Of a DNA stretch of 64,000 nucleotides, positions 56,693-63,737 are shown in pieces. The notes beneath the pieces were generated by a model. The model made no database searches, was not told the DNA's origin, and saw only the letters and a list, made by a program, of their open reading frames with translations. A program made the position numbers and the translations under genes. The stretch is from Glycomyces artemisiae (GTDB lineage Bacteria > Actinomycetota > Actinomycetes > Mycobacteriales > Micromonosporaceae), in NCBI RefSeq assembly GCF_003002955.1, contig NZ_PVTJ01000001.1, positions 434,001-498,000 on the forward strand. The letters run 5' to 3'. Numbering within the stretch: position 1 is the first letter of the stretch; the number at the start of each line of letters is the position of its first letter.

Positions 56693-58909
56693 CTACAGGA
56701 CCTCTGCGCCGGGGAACACCGGTTTGTCCGGTGCCACAACGCCGAGGCGCTTCGTGGCCCGCGTCAGCGCCACGTACAGGTTCCGCAGACCCGTCGCCGC
56801 GATCGCGTCGGGGTCGACGACGATGACGCTGTCGAACTCCAGTCCCTTGGCCTGCTTCACCGTGAGCACCGACGCGTCCGCGATCCCGGCCAGGCCCGCG
56901 GCCCGCTCCGCGGTCGCCACGACCGCGACGCTCCCGTCCCCGACGAGGGCCTTCTCGGCCGCGACCTGCTCCTCCACGACCCGGTCCACGTGGTCCCCGG
57001 CGACCTCCAGCCACGGCTCGTGCCCAGATTCGCGCACCGACCGCGGCCGCGCCGCGTCGACGCCGATCGCTTCGAGCACCCGTACGGCGACGTTCATGAT
57101 CTCCTTCGGCGTGCGGTACGACACCGTCAGCTGCTCGGCCCGCCAGTCGAGGTCCCAGTCCCCGAACACCTCGCCCCAGCTCGTCGGCGCCACCGGTCCC
57201 GCGGCCTGCGCGAGGTCCCCGGCCACCGTGAACGACCGCGTCACGCACCGGCGCATGAGCGCCCGCCACTCCATCGGCGACAGCTCCTGCGCCTCGTCGA
57301 CGATCACGTGCCCGAAGATCCACCGCCGGTCCGCCGCGGCCCGCTCGGCCACGGACACGAACCGCTCGTCGACCTGCCGCTCCCCGAGCCAGAACTCGTC
57401 GATCACATCGGTGGCCTGGAGCAGCTCCGACTCCTCGTCCTCGAAGTCGAACGACGCCGAGCCGGCCGCGATCGTGAGCACGTCCTGCGCGTACGCGATC
57501 TGCTCCGCGCTGGGCCCGCTCTGGCGCTGCGCCCGCTCCACGTCCCCGAGGTGCTCCGCCGCCTCGTCGAGCAGCGCCACGTCGGCCTCGCTCCACCCGC
57601 CCGGCTCGCGGTACAGCAGCGCCCGCGCCTCCTTCTTCAGCACCGCCGCCGCCGACGCGATCCGCTCGCGGGACGCGAACAGGTCCTCCAGCAGCTCCTC
57701 GGCCGTCAGCTCGGGCCACAGCTCCTCGATCTGCCCGCGGATCACCGCGTCAGAGGCGATCTCCACCGCGAACTGCGCCCGGTCCGCGAGCCCCAGCAGG
57801 TTCTCCCCGCCGAGCGGGTCCTCGCCGATGATGTCCGCGTACTGCGTCGCCAGATCCGCGATGACCCGCTTGTGGAACGTCTCCCGCGCCTCGTTGTGCG
57901 CCAGGCCCGTCTCGCGGGCCGCGTCGCGCGCCGACGTGATCTTCTCGGGCCGCAGCCACAGCTCGTGCCCCTCGAAGTCCACCGGCAGCGGCTCGCGCGG
58001 CACGACCTGCCGGTCGGCGACCGCGCTCGCGATCACCCCGGCCATGACGGCCCGGCCCTTCACGGCCGCAACGGCTTCGGTCTCAGGCCGGTCGGCCACG
58101 ATGCCGGGGAACAGCTGCGAGGGCGTGCGCAGCAGCACGTCGGTCTCGGCCAGGCCCGGCAGCACGTCGGAGATGTACCGCAGGAACTGCCTGCCGGGGC
58201 CGATGATGAGCACGCCCTGCCGCTTCAACCGCTCGCGGTGCTCGTACAGCAGGTACGCGGCCCGGTGCAGCGCGACGGCGGTCTTCCCGGTGCCCGGGGC
58301 GCCGTCGACGATCATGACGCCCTCCAGGGGCGCGCGGATGATCCGGTCCTGCTCGGCCTGGATCGTCGCCACGATGTCCTGCATCGCGCCCGTGCGGGCC
58401 GCGTCCAGGGCCGCCAGGAGCGCCCCCTCCGACCCGATCGTCGAATCCGAATCCGCCGCCGCGTCCAGGTCCAGGACCTCGTCGTTCACCGACCTGATCC
58501 GCCGCCCCTTGGTGTGCAGGTGGCGGCGGCGCCGCACGCCGGCTGGGGACGCCGCGGTCGCCAGGTAGAACCGGCGGCCCGCCTCGCTGCGCCAGTCCAC
58601 GAGCAGCTGCTCCCCGCCCTCGGCGTGGATGCCGATGCGCCCCAGGTACATCGGGGCCTCCGCCGCGTCCACGTAGTCGAGCCGCCCGAAGCACAGGCCC
58701 TCCTCGACCGCGTCGAGCAGCGCGATCCGCCGCCGGTACAGCAGCGTCTCGGCGTCGCGCTGCGACCGCTCCTGGTCGTTCTCCACATGGCGGCGCCCGG
58801 CCTCGCCGAGGCGCTCGGCGGCCTCGTCCCTGAGCCGGTCGACCCGGGCGTACAGCCCGTCCAGGCGGGTCTGCTCGGCCTTGACGGCCGGAGTGATGGC
58901 AGCGGACAC
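56693..58909 (-). CDS. helD: HelD-like UvrD/Rep-family helicase
   Basis: This 738-residue protein is of the HelD group, which rescues stalled RNA polymerase and, in some actinobacteria, confers rifamycin tolerance. An N-terminal coiled-coil region (QTRLDGLYARVDRLRDEAAE, rich in Glu/Arg) precedes the split helicase core. The core has Walker A GAPGTGKTAVALHR, DEAQELSPMEWRAL and LTVSYRTPKEI, and the C-terminal motifs LTVKQAKGLEFD and LYVALTRATKRL. The GTG at 58909 follows GAGGAGAGCC; an upstream GTG at 58954 lacks a ribosome-binding site. Assignment to HelD rather than UvrD rests on length and the N-terminal arm. Confidence 0.87.
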   Translation of the reverse strand: MSAAITPAVKAEQTRLDGLYARVDRLRDEAAERLGEAGRRHVENDQERSQRDAETLLYRRRIALLDAVEEGLCFGRLDYVDAAEAPMYLGRIGIHAEGGEQLLVDWRSEAGRRFYLATAASPAGVRRRRHLHTKGRRIRSVNDEVLDLDAAADSDSTIGSEGALLAALDAARTGAMQDIVATIQAEQDRIIRAPLEGVMIVDGAPGTGKTAVALHRAAYLLYEHRERLKRQGVLIIGPGRQFLRYISDVLPGLAETDVLLRTPSQLFPGIVADRPETEAVAAVKGRAVMAGVIASAVADRQVVPREPLPVDFEGHELWLRPEKITSARDAARETGLAHNEARETFHKRVIADLATQYADIIGEDPLGGENLLGLADRAQFAVEIASDAVIRGQIEELWPELTAEELLEDLFASRERIASAAAVLKKEARALLYREPGGWSEADVALLDEAAEHLGDVERAQRQSGPSAEQIAYAQDVLTIAAGSASFDFEDEESELLQATDVIDEFWLGERQVDERFVSVAERAAADRRWIFGHVIVDEAQELSPMEWRALMRRCVTRSFTVAGDLAQAAGPVAPTSWGEVFGDWDLDWRAEQLTVSYRTPKEIMNVAVRVLEAIGVDAARPRSVRESGHEPWLEVAGDHVDRVVEEQVAAEKALVGDGSVAVVATAERAAGLAGIADASVLTVKQAKGLEFDSVIVVDPDAIAATGLRNLYVALTRATKRLGVVAPDKPVFPGAEVL

Positions 58910-59101
58910 GGCTCTCCTCGGAGACGGAGCGGATGTTGTAAGGGGCGCAGACACTGCGCGGGAGCGGCCCCCGCCGATGGACGGCTCGCCGAATGCGCCG
59001 TGCCGATCGCGGTGGAACCGGTCAACCTTAGCCCCGTCCGGGCCGCTCCGTCTCCCTTCCAGGCGCGAAACGAATCTCCATCACGCCCCGGTAACGATCA
59101 T

Positions 59102-59130
59102 TTGACCCGCTCTGCACGCCCCATTAGGGT
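59102..59130 (+). promoter_or_regulatory. Promoter of the NSS transporter operon
   Basis: TTGACC (59102-59107) and TAGGGT (59125-59130) are separated by exactly 17 bases; the first gene starts at 59178. The gap 58910-59101 upstream holds no further feature that I can support. Confidence 0.65.
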
Positions 59131-59177
59131 TGGCCCGAAATGTGCCCGGAACACGAGAGACTGGAGCGAACGAACCC

Positions 59178-60704
59178 ATGGTGAGAGAGAACTGGGGGTC
59201 GAGGGTGGGCTTCATCCTGGCCGCCATCGGCTCGGCGGTCGGGCTCGGCAACATCTGGCGCTTCCCCGGCGTCGCCTACGAGAACGGCGGCGGCGCCTTC
59301 CTCGTGCCCTACCTCGTGGCCCTGACGACCGCGGGCATCCCGCTGCTGGTCATGGAGTTCACGATCGGCCGCCGCTTCAAGGGCTCCGCCCCGGTCGCCT
59401 TCCGCCGCATGAACAAGAACGCCGAGGCCATCGGCTGGTGGCAGGTCGCCGTCTCCATCGTCATCGCCGTCTACTACGCGGCCATCATCGCCTGGGCCGG
59501 CTGGTACGGCTGGTTCTCCGTCTCCCAGCAGTGGGGCGCCGACCCCGGCACCTTCCTCATGGCCGACTTCCTCCAGGCCAGCGACGGCTTCGGCGACTTC
59601 ACCACCTGGCTCCCCGGCATCGGCCTCGCCATGGTCGTCGTCTGGGCCTTCACGCTCCTCGTCATCGGCGCGGGCATCAAGAAGGGCATCGAGACCACCA
59701 GCAAGGTCTTCATCCCCCTCCTGCTGGTCATGTTCGGCGTCCTCGTCGTCCAGGCCCTCACCCTCGACGGCGCCGTCGAGGGCCTCAACGCCTTCTTCAC
59801 GCCCGACTGGGAGAAGGTCCGCGAACCAGGCGTGTGGCTCGCCGCCTACGGCCAGATCTTCTTCTCCCTGTCGATCGGCTTCGGCATCATGGTCACCTAC
59901 GCCTCCTACCTCAAGCGCAAGTCCGACATCACCACTTCGGCGTTCACCGTCGGCTTCGCGAACTCCTCCTTCGAGATCCTCGCGGGCATCGGCGTCTTCG
60001 CCGCCCTCGGGTTCATCGCCTACGAGTCCGGCGTGCCCATCGCCGAGCAGACCCACTCGGGCGTGGGCCTCGCGTTCGTCGCGTTCCCCACGATCATCAA
60101 CACGCTGCCGTACCTCGCGGGCCTCTTCGGCGTCCTGTTCTTCGCCTCCCTCGTGGTCGCCGGATGGACCTCGATGGTGAGCATCGTGCAGGTCCCCGTG
60201 GCCGCCATGGAGGACCGCTTCGGCTGGGGCCGCGTCAAGGCCACCGCCGTCGTCGGCGGCGCGATGGCCGTCGTCTCGCTCCTCCTGCTGCCCACCGCGA
60301 GCGGCCTGATGTTCCTCGACGTCTCCGACTACTACATCAACCAGTTCGGCATCGTCGTCGCCGCGCTCGTGAGCATCGTCGTCACCGTCTGGGTCATGTG
60401 GCGCTGGAAGGAGCTGCGCGACGACGCCAACGCGACCTCGACGTTCAAGGTCGGCCCGATCTGGTTCGTGTGCCTCGGCGTCATCACCCCGGTCATGCTC
60501 GCGGGCATCCTGTTCCTCAGCCTCCGCGACCTCCTGGCCGCCGAGCCCGGCCTGGAGGCCTACAACCAGTACCAGGCGTTCGGCTGGGCCCTCGCGGGAG
60601 GCGCGCTGGCCTTCGGGACCATCATGGCGCTCATCCTGCGCCGCAAGGAGGTCCCGCCGATCGAGACCGAAGAGGAAGCGCACGAAGTGGAGGCGGCCCT
60701 GTGA
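59178..60704 (+). CDS. Sodium-coupled amino acid transporter (NSS family, MetP-like)
   Basis: This 508-residue inner-membrane transporter is of the neurotransmitter:sodium symporter family, with about twelve helices. The first helix holds the sodium- and substrate-site motif GSAVGLGNIWRFPGVAYENGG-type region, as in LeuT. In Corynebacterium glutamicum the related MetP, with the tiny MetS, takes up methionine and alanine. Here a MetS-like ORF overlaps its stop, so methionine/alanine uptake is the best guess. GGAG is 12 bases before the ATG. Confidence 0.9.
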   Translation: MVRENWGSRVGFILAAIGSAVGLGNIWRFPGVAYENGGGAFLVPYLVALTTAGIPLLVMEFTIGRRFKGSAPVAFRRMNKNAEAIGWWQVAVSIVIAVYYAAIIAWAGWYGWFSVSQQWGADPGTFLMADFLQASDGFGDFTTWLPGIGLAMVVVWAFTLLVIGAGIKKGIETTSKVFIPLLLVMFGVLVVQALTLDGAVEGLNAFFTPDWEKVREPGVWLAAYGQIFFSLSIGFGIMVTYASYLKRKSDITTSAFTVGFANSSFEILAGIGVFAALGFIAYESGVPIAEQTHSGVGLAFVAFPTIINTLPYLAGLFGVLFFASLVVAGWTSMVSIVQVPVAAMEDRFGWGRVKATAVVGGAMAVVSLLLLPTASGLMFLDVSDYYINQFGIVVAALVSIVVTVWVMWRWKELRDDANATSTFKVGPIWFVCLGVITPVMLAGILFLSLRDLLAAEPGLEAYNQYQAFGWALAGGALAFGTIMALILRRKEVPPIETEEEAHEVEAAL

Positions 60705-61031: not shown

Positions 61032-61841
61032 ATGCGCAAGTCGCGCAAGATCATCCTGTCCATCGCCGGAGCCGCGACCCTCGCGGTGTCGGCCTCCATG
61101 GCGGCCCTCGCATGGGGCCACGGCTACACCTCCGACCCGCCCTCCCGCTCGGCGCTGTGCGCCAGCGGGGAGGTCACCAACTGCGGGGCCATCTCCTACG
61201 AGCCCCAGAGCGTCGAGGGCCCCAAGGGCTTCCCGGCGGCCGGACCCGCGGACGGCGAGATCTGCTCCGCGGGCCACGACACCTTCGCCGAACTCGACGA
61301 CCCGCGCGGCGGCAACTGGCCCACCACCTCGGTGAGCGCCGGCCCGAAGACCTTCACGTGGACGATGACCGCGCGCCACTCCACCGCCACGTTCGACTAC
61401 TACATCACCAACGCGAACTACGACCCGGCGCAGCCGCTCACCCGCGCGGACCTCGGGCTCACCCCGATCGCGTCGTTCAACATGGGCGGGGCCCAGCCCG
61501 ACCACACCATGACGCAGACCGTGACGCTCCCGTCCCGCACCGGCCAGCACCTGGTCCTCGCGGTCTGGAACATCGCGGACACCGCGAACGCCTTCTACTC
61601 CTGCATCGACGTCGACTTCGGCGGCGGCGGCTCGGGCGACCCGTCCGACCCGCCGACCTCCACCGACCCCGGCACCGGTGAGGGCTGCTCGGCCGCGGCC
61701 TGGGCCGCCGCCTCGGTGTACACCGGCGGCAGCAAGGTGACCCACAACGGCATCGCCTACACCGCCTCCTGGTGGACGCAGGGCGAGGAGCCCGGCACCA
61801 CCGGCGAATGGGGGGTCTGGAAGCAGACCGCCACCTGTTAG
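61032..61841 (+). CDS. Secreted AA10 lytic polysaccharide monooxygenase with CBM5/12
   Basis: This 269-residue enzyme cuts crystalline chitin or cellulose oxidatively with copper. A signal peptide of 29 residues ends ALAWG-HGYTSDPPSR, leaving His30 as the N-terminal copper ligand of the histidine brace. The second His is in TMTARHSTATFDYYIT. The AA10 domain runs to about residue 195. A Gly/Ser/Pro/Thr linker and a C-terminal chitin-binding module follow (AWAAASVYTGGSKVTHNGIAYTASWWTQG). AGGAG precedes the ATG. It shows the organism attacks chitin or similar polymers outside the cell. Substrate choice cannot be read directly, though CBM5/12 favours chitin. Confidence 0.92.
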   Translation: MRKSRKIILSIAGAATLAVSASMAALAWGHGYTSDPPSRSALCASGEVTNCGAISYEPQSVEGPKGFPAAGPADGEICSAGHDTFAELDDPRGGNWPTTSVSAGPKTFTWTMTARHSTATFDYYITNANYDPAQPLTRADLGLTPIASFNMGGAQPDHTMTQTVTLPSRTGQHLVLAVWNIADTANAFYSCIDVDFGGGGSGDPSDPPTSTDPGTGEGCSAAAWAAASVYTGGSKVTHNGIAYTASWWTQGEEPGTTGEWGVWKQTATC

Positions 61842-61860: not shown

Positions 61861-61903
61861 GCGGGCCCGGCCGATCCACCCCCCCGGTATCGGCTGGGCC
61901 CGT
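61861..61903 (+). terminator. Hairpin terminator after the LPMO gene
   Basis: An imperfect 14-bp stem with one G-T type mismatch (GCGGGCCCGGCCGAT against ATCGGCTGGGCCCG) closes a C-rich loop, 19 bases after the stop. Confidence 0.6.
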
Positions 61904-61917
61904 GGCGCGCGTCTCCC

Positions 61918-61946
61918 TTGACACGCAGGGGAGGCGCGGATACGGT
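61918..61946 (+). promoter_or_regulatory. Near-consensus promoter of the ABC-F gene
   Basis: TTGACA (61918-61923), 17 bases, then TACGGT (61941-61946): the best sigma-70 promoter in the window. It would start an RNA about 190 bases before the ABC-F ATG. Confidence 0.8.
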
Positions 61947-61952
61947 TGTCCG

Positions 61953-62144
61953 GTCCTTGTTCCCGACGTTAGGCACTCACTTGAAGCTCTAGGTCGTAGA
62001 CATCGCGCCGCCACGTCTCTGCGCACGTGCACGGTGTGTCTTCGATCAAGAGGGTGTCCTATTTCCGGGAACGATCCCTTTCCGCCGTCAGGCGCGATGT
62101 CTCTCATGTGATCCCGTTCGACAACTCACCTGAGAGAGGTCTCC
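61953..62144 (+). promoter_or_regulatory. Long structured leader of the ABC-F gene
   Basis: The roughly 190-base leader can form a 12-bp perfect long-range stem (61998-62009 with 62091-62102). A second, 7-bp stem (62100-62106 with 62131-62137) covers the ribosome-binding site AGAGAGG at 62133-62139. The two compete for 62100-62102. A four-codon ORF (62097-62111) lies across the switch point. ABC-F resistance genes are often controlled by ribosome-mediated attenuation, so this is a candidate. Confidence 0.55.
62097..62111 (+). other. Possible four-codon leader ORF (MSLM)
   Basis: ATG at 62097 reads Met-Ser-Leu-Met and stops at TGA 62109-62111. CAGG lies 5 bases upstream. A ribosome stalled here would cover 62100-62106, the strand that hides the downstream ribosome-binding site. 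Confidence 0.3.
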
Positions 62145-63737
62145 ATGGCCACCACCTATATCAACGTCCAGCAGCTGCGCTTCGCCTGGCCGGACGGCGA
62201 CCGCGTCTTCGACGGCGTCGACGTCGTGTTCTCCGACGGCCGCACCGCCCTCGTCGGCGACAACGGGACCGGCAAGTCCACGCTCATGCGCCTGGTCGCC
62301 GGGCTCCTCAAACCCGAGTCCGGGTCGATCACCGCGTCGGGCCTCATCGAGTACCTGCCGCAGGAACTCCCGCTGCGCCTGGGCGACACCGTCGCCGACC
62401 TGCTCGGCATCGCCGACAAGCGCCGCGCGCTCCTGGCGATCGAGGCGGGCGACGCGGGGGAGGAGCACTTCGCCGCCATCGGCGACGACTGGGACTTCCT
62501 CGACCGCTCGCGGGTCGCGCTCGACGAGCTCGGCCTCGACCACGTCGGCTTCGAGCGCACCGTCGCGACCCTGTCCGGTGGCGAGTCGATGCTCGTGGGC
62601 CTGGCCGGGCGGCTCGTGCGCCGCCCGGACGTGCTCCTGCTCGACGAGCCGTCGAACAACCTCGACGCCTCCGCGCGGCAGCGCCTGTACCAGGCGATCC
62701 GCCGATTCGGCGGCACGCTTGTCGTCGTCAGCCACGACCGGGCGCTCCTGGAGCACGTCGACTCCGTCGCCGAGCTCTACAAGGGACGCATCCGCGTGTT
62801 CGACGGCAACTACAGCGCCTACGAGGCGGTCATCGCCGCCGAGCAGGAGGCCGCGGCCCGCGCCGTGCGCGACGCCAAGCAGGACTTGACGAGGCAGCGC
62901 AAGGAGCTGGTCGCCACCCGCATCCAGAACGACAAGGGCGCATCCGCGTGGAAGCGCGAGCGCGACCGCGGCGGCACGCCGAAGATCCTCCTCAACGGCA
63001 AGAAGAACGCCGGGGAGGTCTCGTCGGCGAAGATCCTGCTCGCCAAGCAGGAGGACGTCGCCGAGGCCCGCGAGCGCCTCGACGCCGCCGAGGAGACCGT
63101 GCGCGACGACGGCGGCATCAGCGTGGACCTGCCGGAGACGCACGTCTCGACGCACCGCGAGATCGCGCTCGTCGAGGGACTCAAGGCCGGTGAGATCTAC
63201 GGCGACGGCGTGGGCCTGCACCTGCGCGGGCCCGAACGCGTCGCCCTCACCGGCGACAACGGCTCCGGCAAGACCACGCTGCTGCGCGCGGTCGCCGCGG
63301 CCGCGCGGGTCCCGCACGGGTTCCTCACGCAGCGCCTGGAACTGCTCGACGAGGACGCCACGGTGCTCGACAACGTGCGCTCCGCCGCGCCCGAGGCCCC
63401 GCAGGCGCTCCTGCGGACCCGCCTGGCGCGCTTCGGGATGCGCGGCGACGCCGTGTTCCAGAAGGTCGGCACGCTCTCGGGCGGCCAGCGGCTGCGCGCA
63501 GCGTTGGCGACGGTGCTGTCCTCGCAGCCCGCGCCGCAGCTGCTGCTGCTCGACGAGCCGACGAACAACCTCGACATGTCCTCGACGCGCCAGCTTCAGC
63601 AGGCGCTCACCGCGTTCCAAGGCGCGCTGGTCGTGGTCAGCCACGACGAGGCGTTCCTGGACGGCATCGGCGTGACCCGCCGGGTCGGCCTGGTGCGCGG
63701 CGAGGGGATCGTCGAGGACGTGCCGGTCGCGGCCTGA
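62145..63737 (+). CDS. ABC-F protein of antibiotic-resistance type
   Basis: The 530-residue protein has two ABC domains and no membrane helix: Walker A GDNGTGKST and GDNGSGKTT, signatures LSGGESMLVGL and LSGGQRLRAAL, Walker B with DEPSNNLD and DEPTNNLD. The linker between them is Lys/Arg/Glu-rich and helical (about residues 225-310), as in ribosome-protection proteins of producers and resistant bacteria (VmlR, OleB, TlrC groups). It differs from EttA in the linker and signature. It probably dislodges a ribosome-targeting antibiotic; which drug class is unknown. GAGAGG lies 5 bases before the ATG. Confidence 0.87.
   Translation: MATTYINVQQLRFAWPDGDRVFDGVDVVFSDGRTALVGDNGTGKSTLMRLVAGLLKPESGSITASGLIEYLPQELPLRLGDTVADLLGIADKRRALLAIEAGDAGEEHFAAIGDDWDFLDRSRVALDELGLDHVGFERTVATLSGGESMLVGLAGRLVRRPDVLLLDEPSNNLDASARQRLYQAIRRFGGTLVVVSHDRALLEHVDSVAELYKGRIRVFDGNYSAYEAVIAAEQEAAARAVRDAKQDLTRQRKELVATRIQNDKGASAWKRERDRGGTPKILLNGKKNAGEVSSAKILLAKQEDVAEARERLDAAEETVRDDGGISVDLPETHVSTHREIALVEGLKAGEIYGDGVGLHLRGPERVALTGDNGSGKTTLLRAVAAAARVPHGFLTQRLELLDEDATVLDNVRSAAPEAPQALLRTRLARFGMRGDAVFQKVGTLSGGQRLRAALATVLSSQPAPQLLLLDEPTNNLDMSSTRQLQQALTAFQGALVVVSHDEAFLDGIGVTRRVGLVRGEGIVEDVPVAA

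Follow-up and report, generated by a model that had tools for sequence, protein, structure and literature searches.

The window analysed here is a 64,000-nucleotide stretch of the Glycomyces artemisiae contig NZ_PVTJ01000001.1 (positions 434,001 to 498,000, forward strand). Its last feature is a gene for a 530-aa ABC-F ATPase of the ribosome-protection type (62145-63737, + strand), preceded by a leader of ~192 nt. ABC-F proteins are among the important means by which cells are intrinsically resistant to lincosamides, pleuromutilins, and streptogramin A, and the way in which they are kept silent until the need arises is under active study. The original prediction, made from the DNA letters, held that this leader senses a ribosome-targeting antibiotic through two competing stems; we report here on its anatomy, its conservation, and its probable mode of action.

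The ABC-F gene and its leader RNA

The assignment of the protein rests on an NCBIfam profile and on matches to solved ABC-F proteins. The nearest family is ribo_prot_ABC_F ('ribosomal protection-like ABC-F'), matched at 317 bits, under the cutoff of 380, and none of the cutoffs of the named ABC-F subfamilies is reached among the 25 best profiles listed; the solved-structure matches are to ABC-F proteins including YheS, a lincosamide-streptogramin A resistance protein, and PoxtA. The G. albidus and G. sambucus proteins are 91-92% identical to it over the protein, homologues in Stackebrandtia, Nonomuraea, Actinomadura, and Streptomyces are ~50-58% identical, and the same genome holds a single further match at E ≤ 1e-30, 34% identical, which we take to be a second ABC-F protein. 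As relatives we used the best 80 of 577 protein matches, a choice that biases the set towards close kin; 87 leaders were examined, and 22 Glycomyces genomes (15 near and 7 distal) were compared.

The leader is preceded by a candidate promoter at 61918-61946 (+ strand), with a perfect -35 element (TTGACA, 61918-61923), a spacer of 17 nt, and a poor -10 element (TACGGT, 61941-61946). It had been called near-consensus, and a consensus promoter scan of the window did not pick it up; what makes it credible is the presence of the same pattern in 21 of the 22 Glycomyces leaders. The spacing from the -10 element, together with conservation, suggests a transcript start at 61953, which coincides with the beginning of the conserved block, and the resulting leader RNA (61953-62144, + strand) would be 192 nt long. 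The whole leader folds with z = -3.23. No Rfam match was found in the window at the gathering score, nor in 61900-62200 at E values up to 5, and 18 related loci gave three matches, all to the ASdes small RNA (sRNA) and none inside a leader.

A three-codon reading frame and three competing stems

Two elements that were missing from the original prediction, an upstream open reading frame (uORF) and a stem that we call X, complete the parts of a sensor that the two stems proposed at first would not make by themselves. The predicted uORF, TTG AAG CTC TAG (M-K-L-stop; 61981-61992, + strand), lies shortly 3' of a weak Shine-Dalgarno (SD)-like AGG (61971-61973). A three-codon uORF is present at the same position in all 22 Glycomyces leaders (21 MKL and one MIL) and in other genera, and 85 of the 87 leaders examined have such a uORF. 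The Stackebrandtia, Nonomuraea, Actinomadura, and Streptomyces relatives have the same leader layout with different tripeptides, such that start, length, and stop are kept while the codons vary (TTG, ATG, or GTG start; TAG, TAA, or TGA stop; MKL, MRI, or MLV), the MRI form being found in Actinomadura and Nonomuraea. The count of 85 includes L058, with a doubtful uORF 349 nt upstream, and L103, whose uORF lies at a distance of 346 nt. The uORF search gave no candidate in L071 and L105, although L105 nonetheless has TTG CTC TTC TGA and a variant arm.

Some leaders depart from this layout. The uORFs of L123 and L127 have four and two codons, respectively, and in L123 the arm of stem Y (see below) lies, by eye, ~3 nt further out. 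L135 and L136 have a miniature leader in which ATG CGG ATC TGA (MRI*), a short hairpin, and GGAGG follow directly on one another, all no more than ~50 nt from the main start; by eye they show no chain of three stems, and these may represent a simpler form or another mechanism. In L134, a short leader ~80 nt before the ABC-F start, GTG CTC AGC TGA is followed by GGTCGTAGACATCGCGCC, the identical 18 letters found in the window; L134 comes from another genus of the family.

Three stems can be drawn downstream of the uORF start, all on the + strand. In the minimum-free-energy fold of the free leader, stem X pairs 61987-62001, which overlaps the end of the uORF and the first 4 nt of the next stem, with 62038-62052; an outer extension, weaker in the seven distal Glycomyces, pairs 61972-61977, including the ribosome-binding region of the uORF, with 62053-62058. 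Stem Y, which begins at +18 of the uORF start, pairs 61998-62009 with 62091-62102 over 12 bp, and the 3' end of its 3' arm doubles as part of stem Z. The latter pairs an anti-Shine-Dalgarno arm (62100-62106) with 62131-62137 over the main SD sequence GAGAGAGG (62132-62139), and is extended by pairing of 62096-62098 with 62139-62141. A small CACGU/ACGUG hairpin (62012-62029) is also present, with all five pairs in 18 of the 22 Glycomyces. The stems form a chain of exclusion in which X blocks Y, and Y blocks Z, which hides the ribosome-binding site; the leader is predicted to contain mutually exclusive stems that a stalled ribosome could redirect.

Both Y and Z had been proposed at first, with exact coordinates. 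The 12-bp stem is not a chance product, as none of 2000 dinucleotide shuffles reproduces it, while a stem of at least 7 bp arises in 1330 of 2000 and is by itself at chance level. All 22 Glycomyces retain the stems fully or partly. For X, 87.7% of 318 cells are paired and a CG to GC double change is seen in 5 of 22 genomes; for Y, 99.2% of 264 cells are paired and 4 of the 22 genomes show a UA to CG double change. Compensatory double changes within Glycomyces are present in X and Y, although sparse, and absent from Z. Across genera, the pairing of the Z arm with its own SD region is above random pairing.

The long blocks conserved among near Glycomyces might instead suggest a metabolite riboswitch or a protein-binding leader in place of a ribosome sensor. 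We give this almost no credence: outside the genus the blocks are not conserved, whereas the uORF and the pairing are, and no Rfam family is recognized in the window leader.

Modelled folding with a ribosome stalled on the uORF start codon

To model a stalled ribosome, the RNA was masked as far as +16, counted from the uORF start codon, an edge taken from the toeprint of the 30S subunit on the vmlR uORF, described as lying 16 nt past the start (PMC9226507). The tests of Y and Z folding, arm swapping, terminators, and uORF codons were mostly made on 82 of the 85 uORF-bearing leaders, L058, L095, and L103 having been set aside with their best Y 3' arm outside the range of 35-110 nt before the ATG.

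In 71 of the 85 leaders, stem Y begins at +17 to +19 counted from the uORF start, and would lie just clear of the edge of a ribosome stalled on the start codon. Masking to +16 raises the probability of Y, P(Y), by more than 0.3 in 61/82 leaders and lowers it in none, and when the masked edge is moved, the mean P(Y) peaks with the edge at +14 to +16 (0.87, compared with 0.22 for the free leader). The modelled cost of opening the SD is 6.6 kcal/mol when the shared arm is held by Y and 11.0 kcal/mol otherwise (10.2 if the loop is masked instead, 8.3 if the arm is shuffled), and it falls by more than 3 kcal/mol in 49/82 leaders. In full-length models extending to ATG+4, P(Y) rises by more than 0.3 in 59/82 leaders, and SD opening rises by more than 0.1 in 53 and falls by as much in three; for the window leader, P(Y) goes from 0 to 0.74 and SD opening from 0.19 to 0.37.

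These data suggest the following sequence of events. Without drug, ribosomes would clear the three-codon uORF fast and X would form, occupying the first bases of the Y 5' arm and so preventing Y; the free Y 3' arm would then pair with the main SD region as Z, leaving the ABC-F gene untranslated. A drug that prevents formation of the first peptide bond (a lincosamide, pleuromutilin, or streptogramin A) would stall a ribosome on the uORF start codon, with its downstream edge, at about +16, covering most of the X 5' arm and stopping right before the Y 5' arm at +18. Y could then form and pull the shared arm from Z, releasing the SD. We put at roughly 0.7 the probability that the leader is a ribosome-mediated attenuator that controls the ABC-F gene in the manner of the leader of are5sc (SCO6720) in Streptomyces coelicolor. 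Modelled folding energies give good support to the X-to-Y step, which they favour in most leaders examined, while the final step appears to vary with the 3' end chosen and possibly with kinetics.

A number of observations weigh against this interpretation. Some concern the stems. X is better than shuffles in only 31/85 leaders; the double changes in X and in Y each fall at a single pair, and that number is matched by 412 of 500 and 279 of 500 shuffles, respectively; Z has no double change in Glycomyces. Sliding the partner by +2 columns gives higher covariation scores than the real register, both for Y (0.084 against 0.074) and for Z (0.204 against 0.148). Y arms swapped between genera pair at 9.83/12 positions, compared with 10.18/12 for their own. 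The Z arm pairs better with its own partner than with the mean swapped one in 15/15 near but 4/7 distal Glycomyces, and in 32/39 Streptomyces, 6/11 Actinomadura, and 3/9 Nonomuraea leaders, by permutations that take no account of relatedness. The SD of the uORF is weak, with a 3-nt exact match in 15/22 Glycomyces. Others concern the models. The spacing of Y was partly selected for, as a candidate was accepted only with a Y-like motif between +15 and +28 and the helix search began at +15, and the drop in P(Y) past +18 is partly by construction. The cost of opening the SD rises in 7/82 leaders, and in the isolated 3' segment the probability of an open SD rises by more than 0.2 in only 25/82 and falls slightly in 14. 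When the model runs to ATG+15, mean SD opening goes only from 0.12 to 0.20, with a rise of more than 0.2 in 12/85 leaders and a fall of more than 0.2 in two, and the window's own masked fold lacks Y; the differences between the ATG+4 and ATG+15 models mean that SD release depends on the chosen 3' end.

These leaders are GC-rich and fold stably regardless, and X often fails to surpass shuffles, as would suit a constitutive 5' untranslated region (5'UTR) that merely lowers or stabilizes expression, with the uORF a by-product. That account is very unlikely given that codon changes in the uORF leave its start, length, and stop in place, that mutually exclusive stems are conserved, and that, subject to the selection caveat above, the distance to the Y arm is kept in 71/85 leaders.

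A further point against control through the SD is that the are5sc authors favour transcriptional control (PMC12421871). They describe a drug-induced transcriptional fusion and a 5'UTR that can take terminator and antiterminator forms, and the choice between X and Y could likewise set terminator against antiterminator, with the SD stem secondary. Terminator-like hairpins with a T run do occur in 9/39 Streptomyces leaders, against a shuffled rate of 5%, whereas only 1/22 Glycomyces leaders has one (shuffled rate again 5%), and a terminator scan of the window gave a single candidate at the promoter (61937-61952) and none 3' of the uORF. Since the outer X 3' arm takes part in several of the hairpins seen in Streptomyces, stalling would probably favour them, which is the wrong direction, and transcription attenuation also leaves aside that Z pairs with the SD region above the random level. 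We consider it unlikely as the principal mechanism, and infer that the main output of the attenuator is translation. The Streptomyces hairpins with a T run (e.g. L104, L107, and L114) lie past the X 3' arm, and several end in a TTTCTC-like run.

Around the locus, a HelR/HelD-type RNA-polymerase recycling ATPase gene (56693-58954, - strand; NCBIfam NF041258, 616 bits, under its cutoff of 1100) lies ~3 kb upstream of the leader, separated from it by genes for a sodium-dependent transporter (59130-60704) and a GbpA-like chitin-binding protein (61032-61841). HelR-type proteins are associated with rifamycin tolerance. The three ASdes sRNA matches, all on the - strand, come from Streptomyces loci (L087, 6129-6196; L089, 6165-6232; L122, 6109-6176), where they lie ~3 kb downstream of the start of the ABC-F gene.

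Comparison with known attenuators

Judged by its anatomy, which is real and conserved with some compensatory changes, the leader is probably a drug-sensing attenuator, and Streptomyces has a published example of the same kind. The are5sc leader is reported to be inducible by ribosome-targeting drugs, with stalling at the start codon of the uORF are5scL1 (MLV, TTG start), which is overlapped by an MRS/LRS uORF (PMC12421871). Of the Streptomyces leaders found here, those of the closest Streptomyces proteins among the matches listed, 37/41 have an are5sc-type TTG CTC GTC TGA (MLV), and 23/41 have an overlapping L2-like CTG AGG TCC TGA; in the window, MKL occupies the L1 position and the L2-like frame is absent at that place. 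As published, the are5sc leader shares with the window leader a TTG-start tripeptide uORF, a long 5'UTR (232 nt, and ~192 nt inferred for the window), and an RNA stem that includes the uORF ribosome-binding site; Glycomyces differs in its MKL (in one species MIL) peptide, its primary sequence, and the near lack of terminator-like hairpins, and hiding of the SD, rather than the terminator and antiterminator forms described for are5sc, is the shared outcome here. The window leader is probably the Glycomyces counterpart of the are5sc leader and may work like it, a link drawn from shared uORF features and from the published description of are5sc. The original expectation of a drug sensor was therefore right in direction, while its claim of novelty holds for Glycomyces (the literature searched contained nothing pairing the genus with ABCF or uORF) and not for Streptomyces. 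As to the drugs, lincosamides and pleuromutilins stand, and these together with streptogramin A, all of which arrest the ribosome on the start codon, are the likely inducers; the macrolides proposed with them fare less well, as erythromycin is described as giving no stalling on are5scL1 (PMC12421871).

Similar elements have been described in other ABC-F leaders. That of lmrC in Streptomyces lincolnensis (PMC8546547) is also actinobacterial and shows ribosome-mediated attenuation by lincosamides, pleuromutilins, and streptogramin A, but has a mapped terminator whose formation appears to need uORF2, the reverse logic. In Clostridioides difficile, a different phylum, cplR (PMC10201436) has a tripeptide uORF, MR[I/M], and a stem hiding the main SD, which there doubles as a terminator with a U tract. 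The Bacillus subtilis vmlR leader (PMC9226507) likewise has a tripeptide uORF (MIN), the toeprint at 16 nt, and a part played by translation attenuation, but differs in its intrinsic terminator, RNA polymerase pausing, and unrelated sequence, and the uORF of vmlR2 is given as MK[L/Q] (PMC10201436, PMC9226507).

It is tempting to generalize, if somewhat short of even odds, to a widespread actinomycete switch in which a varied three-codon uORF serves as a ruler and not as a peptide sensor, the edge of a parked initiating ribosome falls between competing arms, and the result is a freed ABC-F SD rather than termination, in 19 copies without an Rfam match. Natural vmlR variants such as MDN and MDK are reported still to induce (PMC9226507), but the later statement that efficient induction depends crucially on the identity of the MIN uORF (PMC10201436) speaks against peptide-independence there and cautions against a pure ruler. 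If the idea is correct, one switch plan would persist in at least five actinomycete genera despite drifted sequence and leader peptide, and spacing would provide a simple rule for the drugs sensed, namely those that freeze the ribosome at the start codon. The question of transcription or translation raised by are5sc could be addressed in this relative with almost no visible terminator. Compared with these systems, what is new here is the Glycomyces case itself, a three-stem logic that ends on the SD, and a possible spacing rule.
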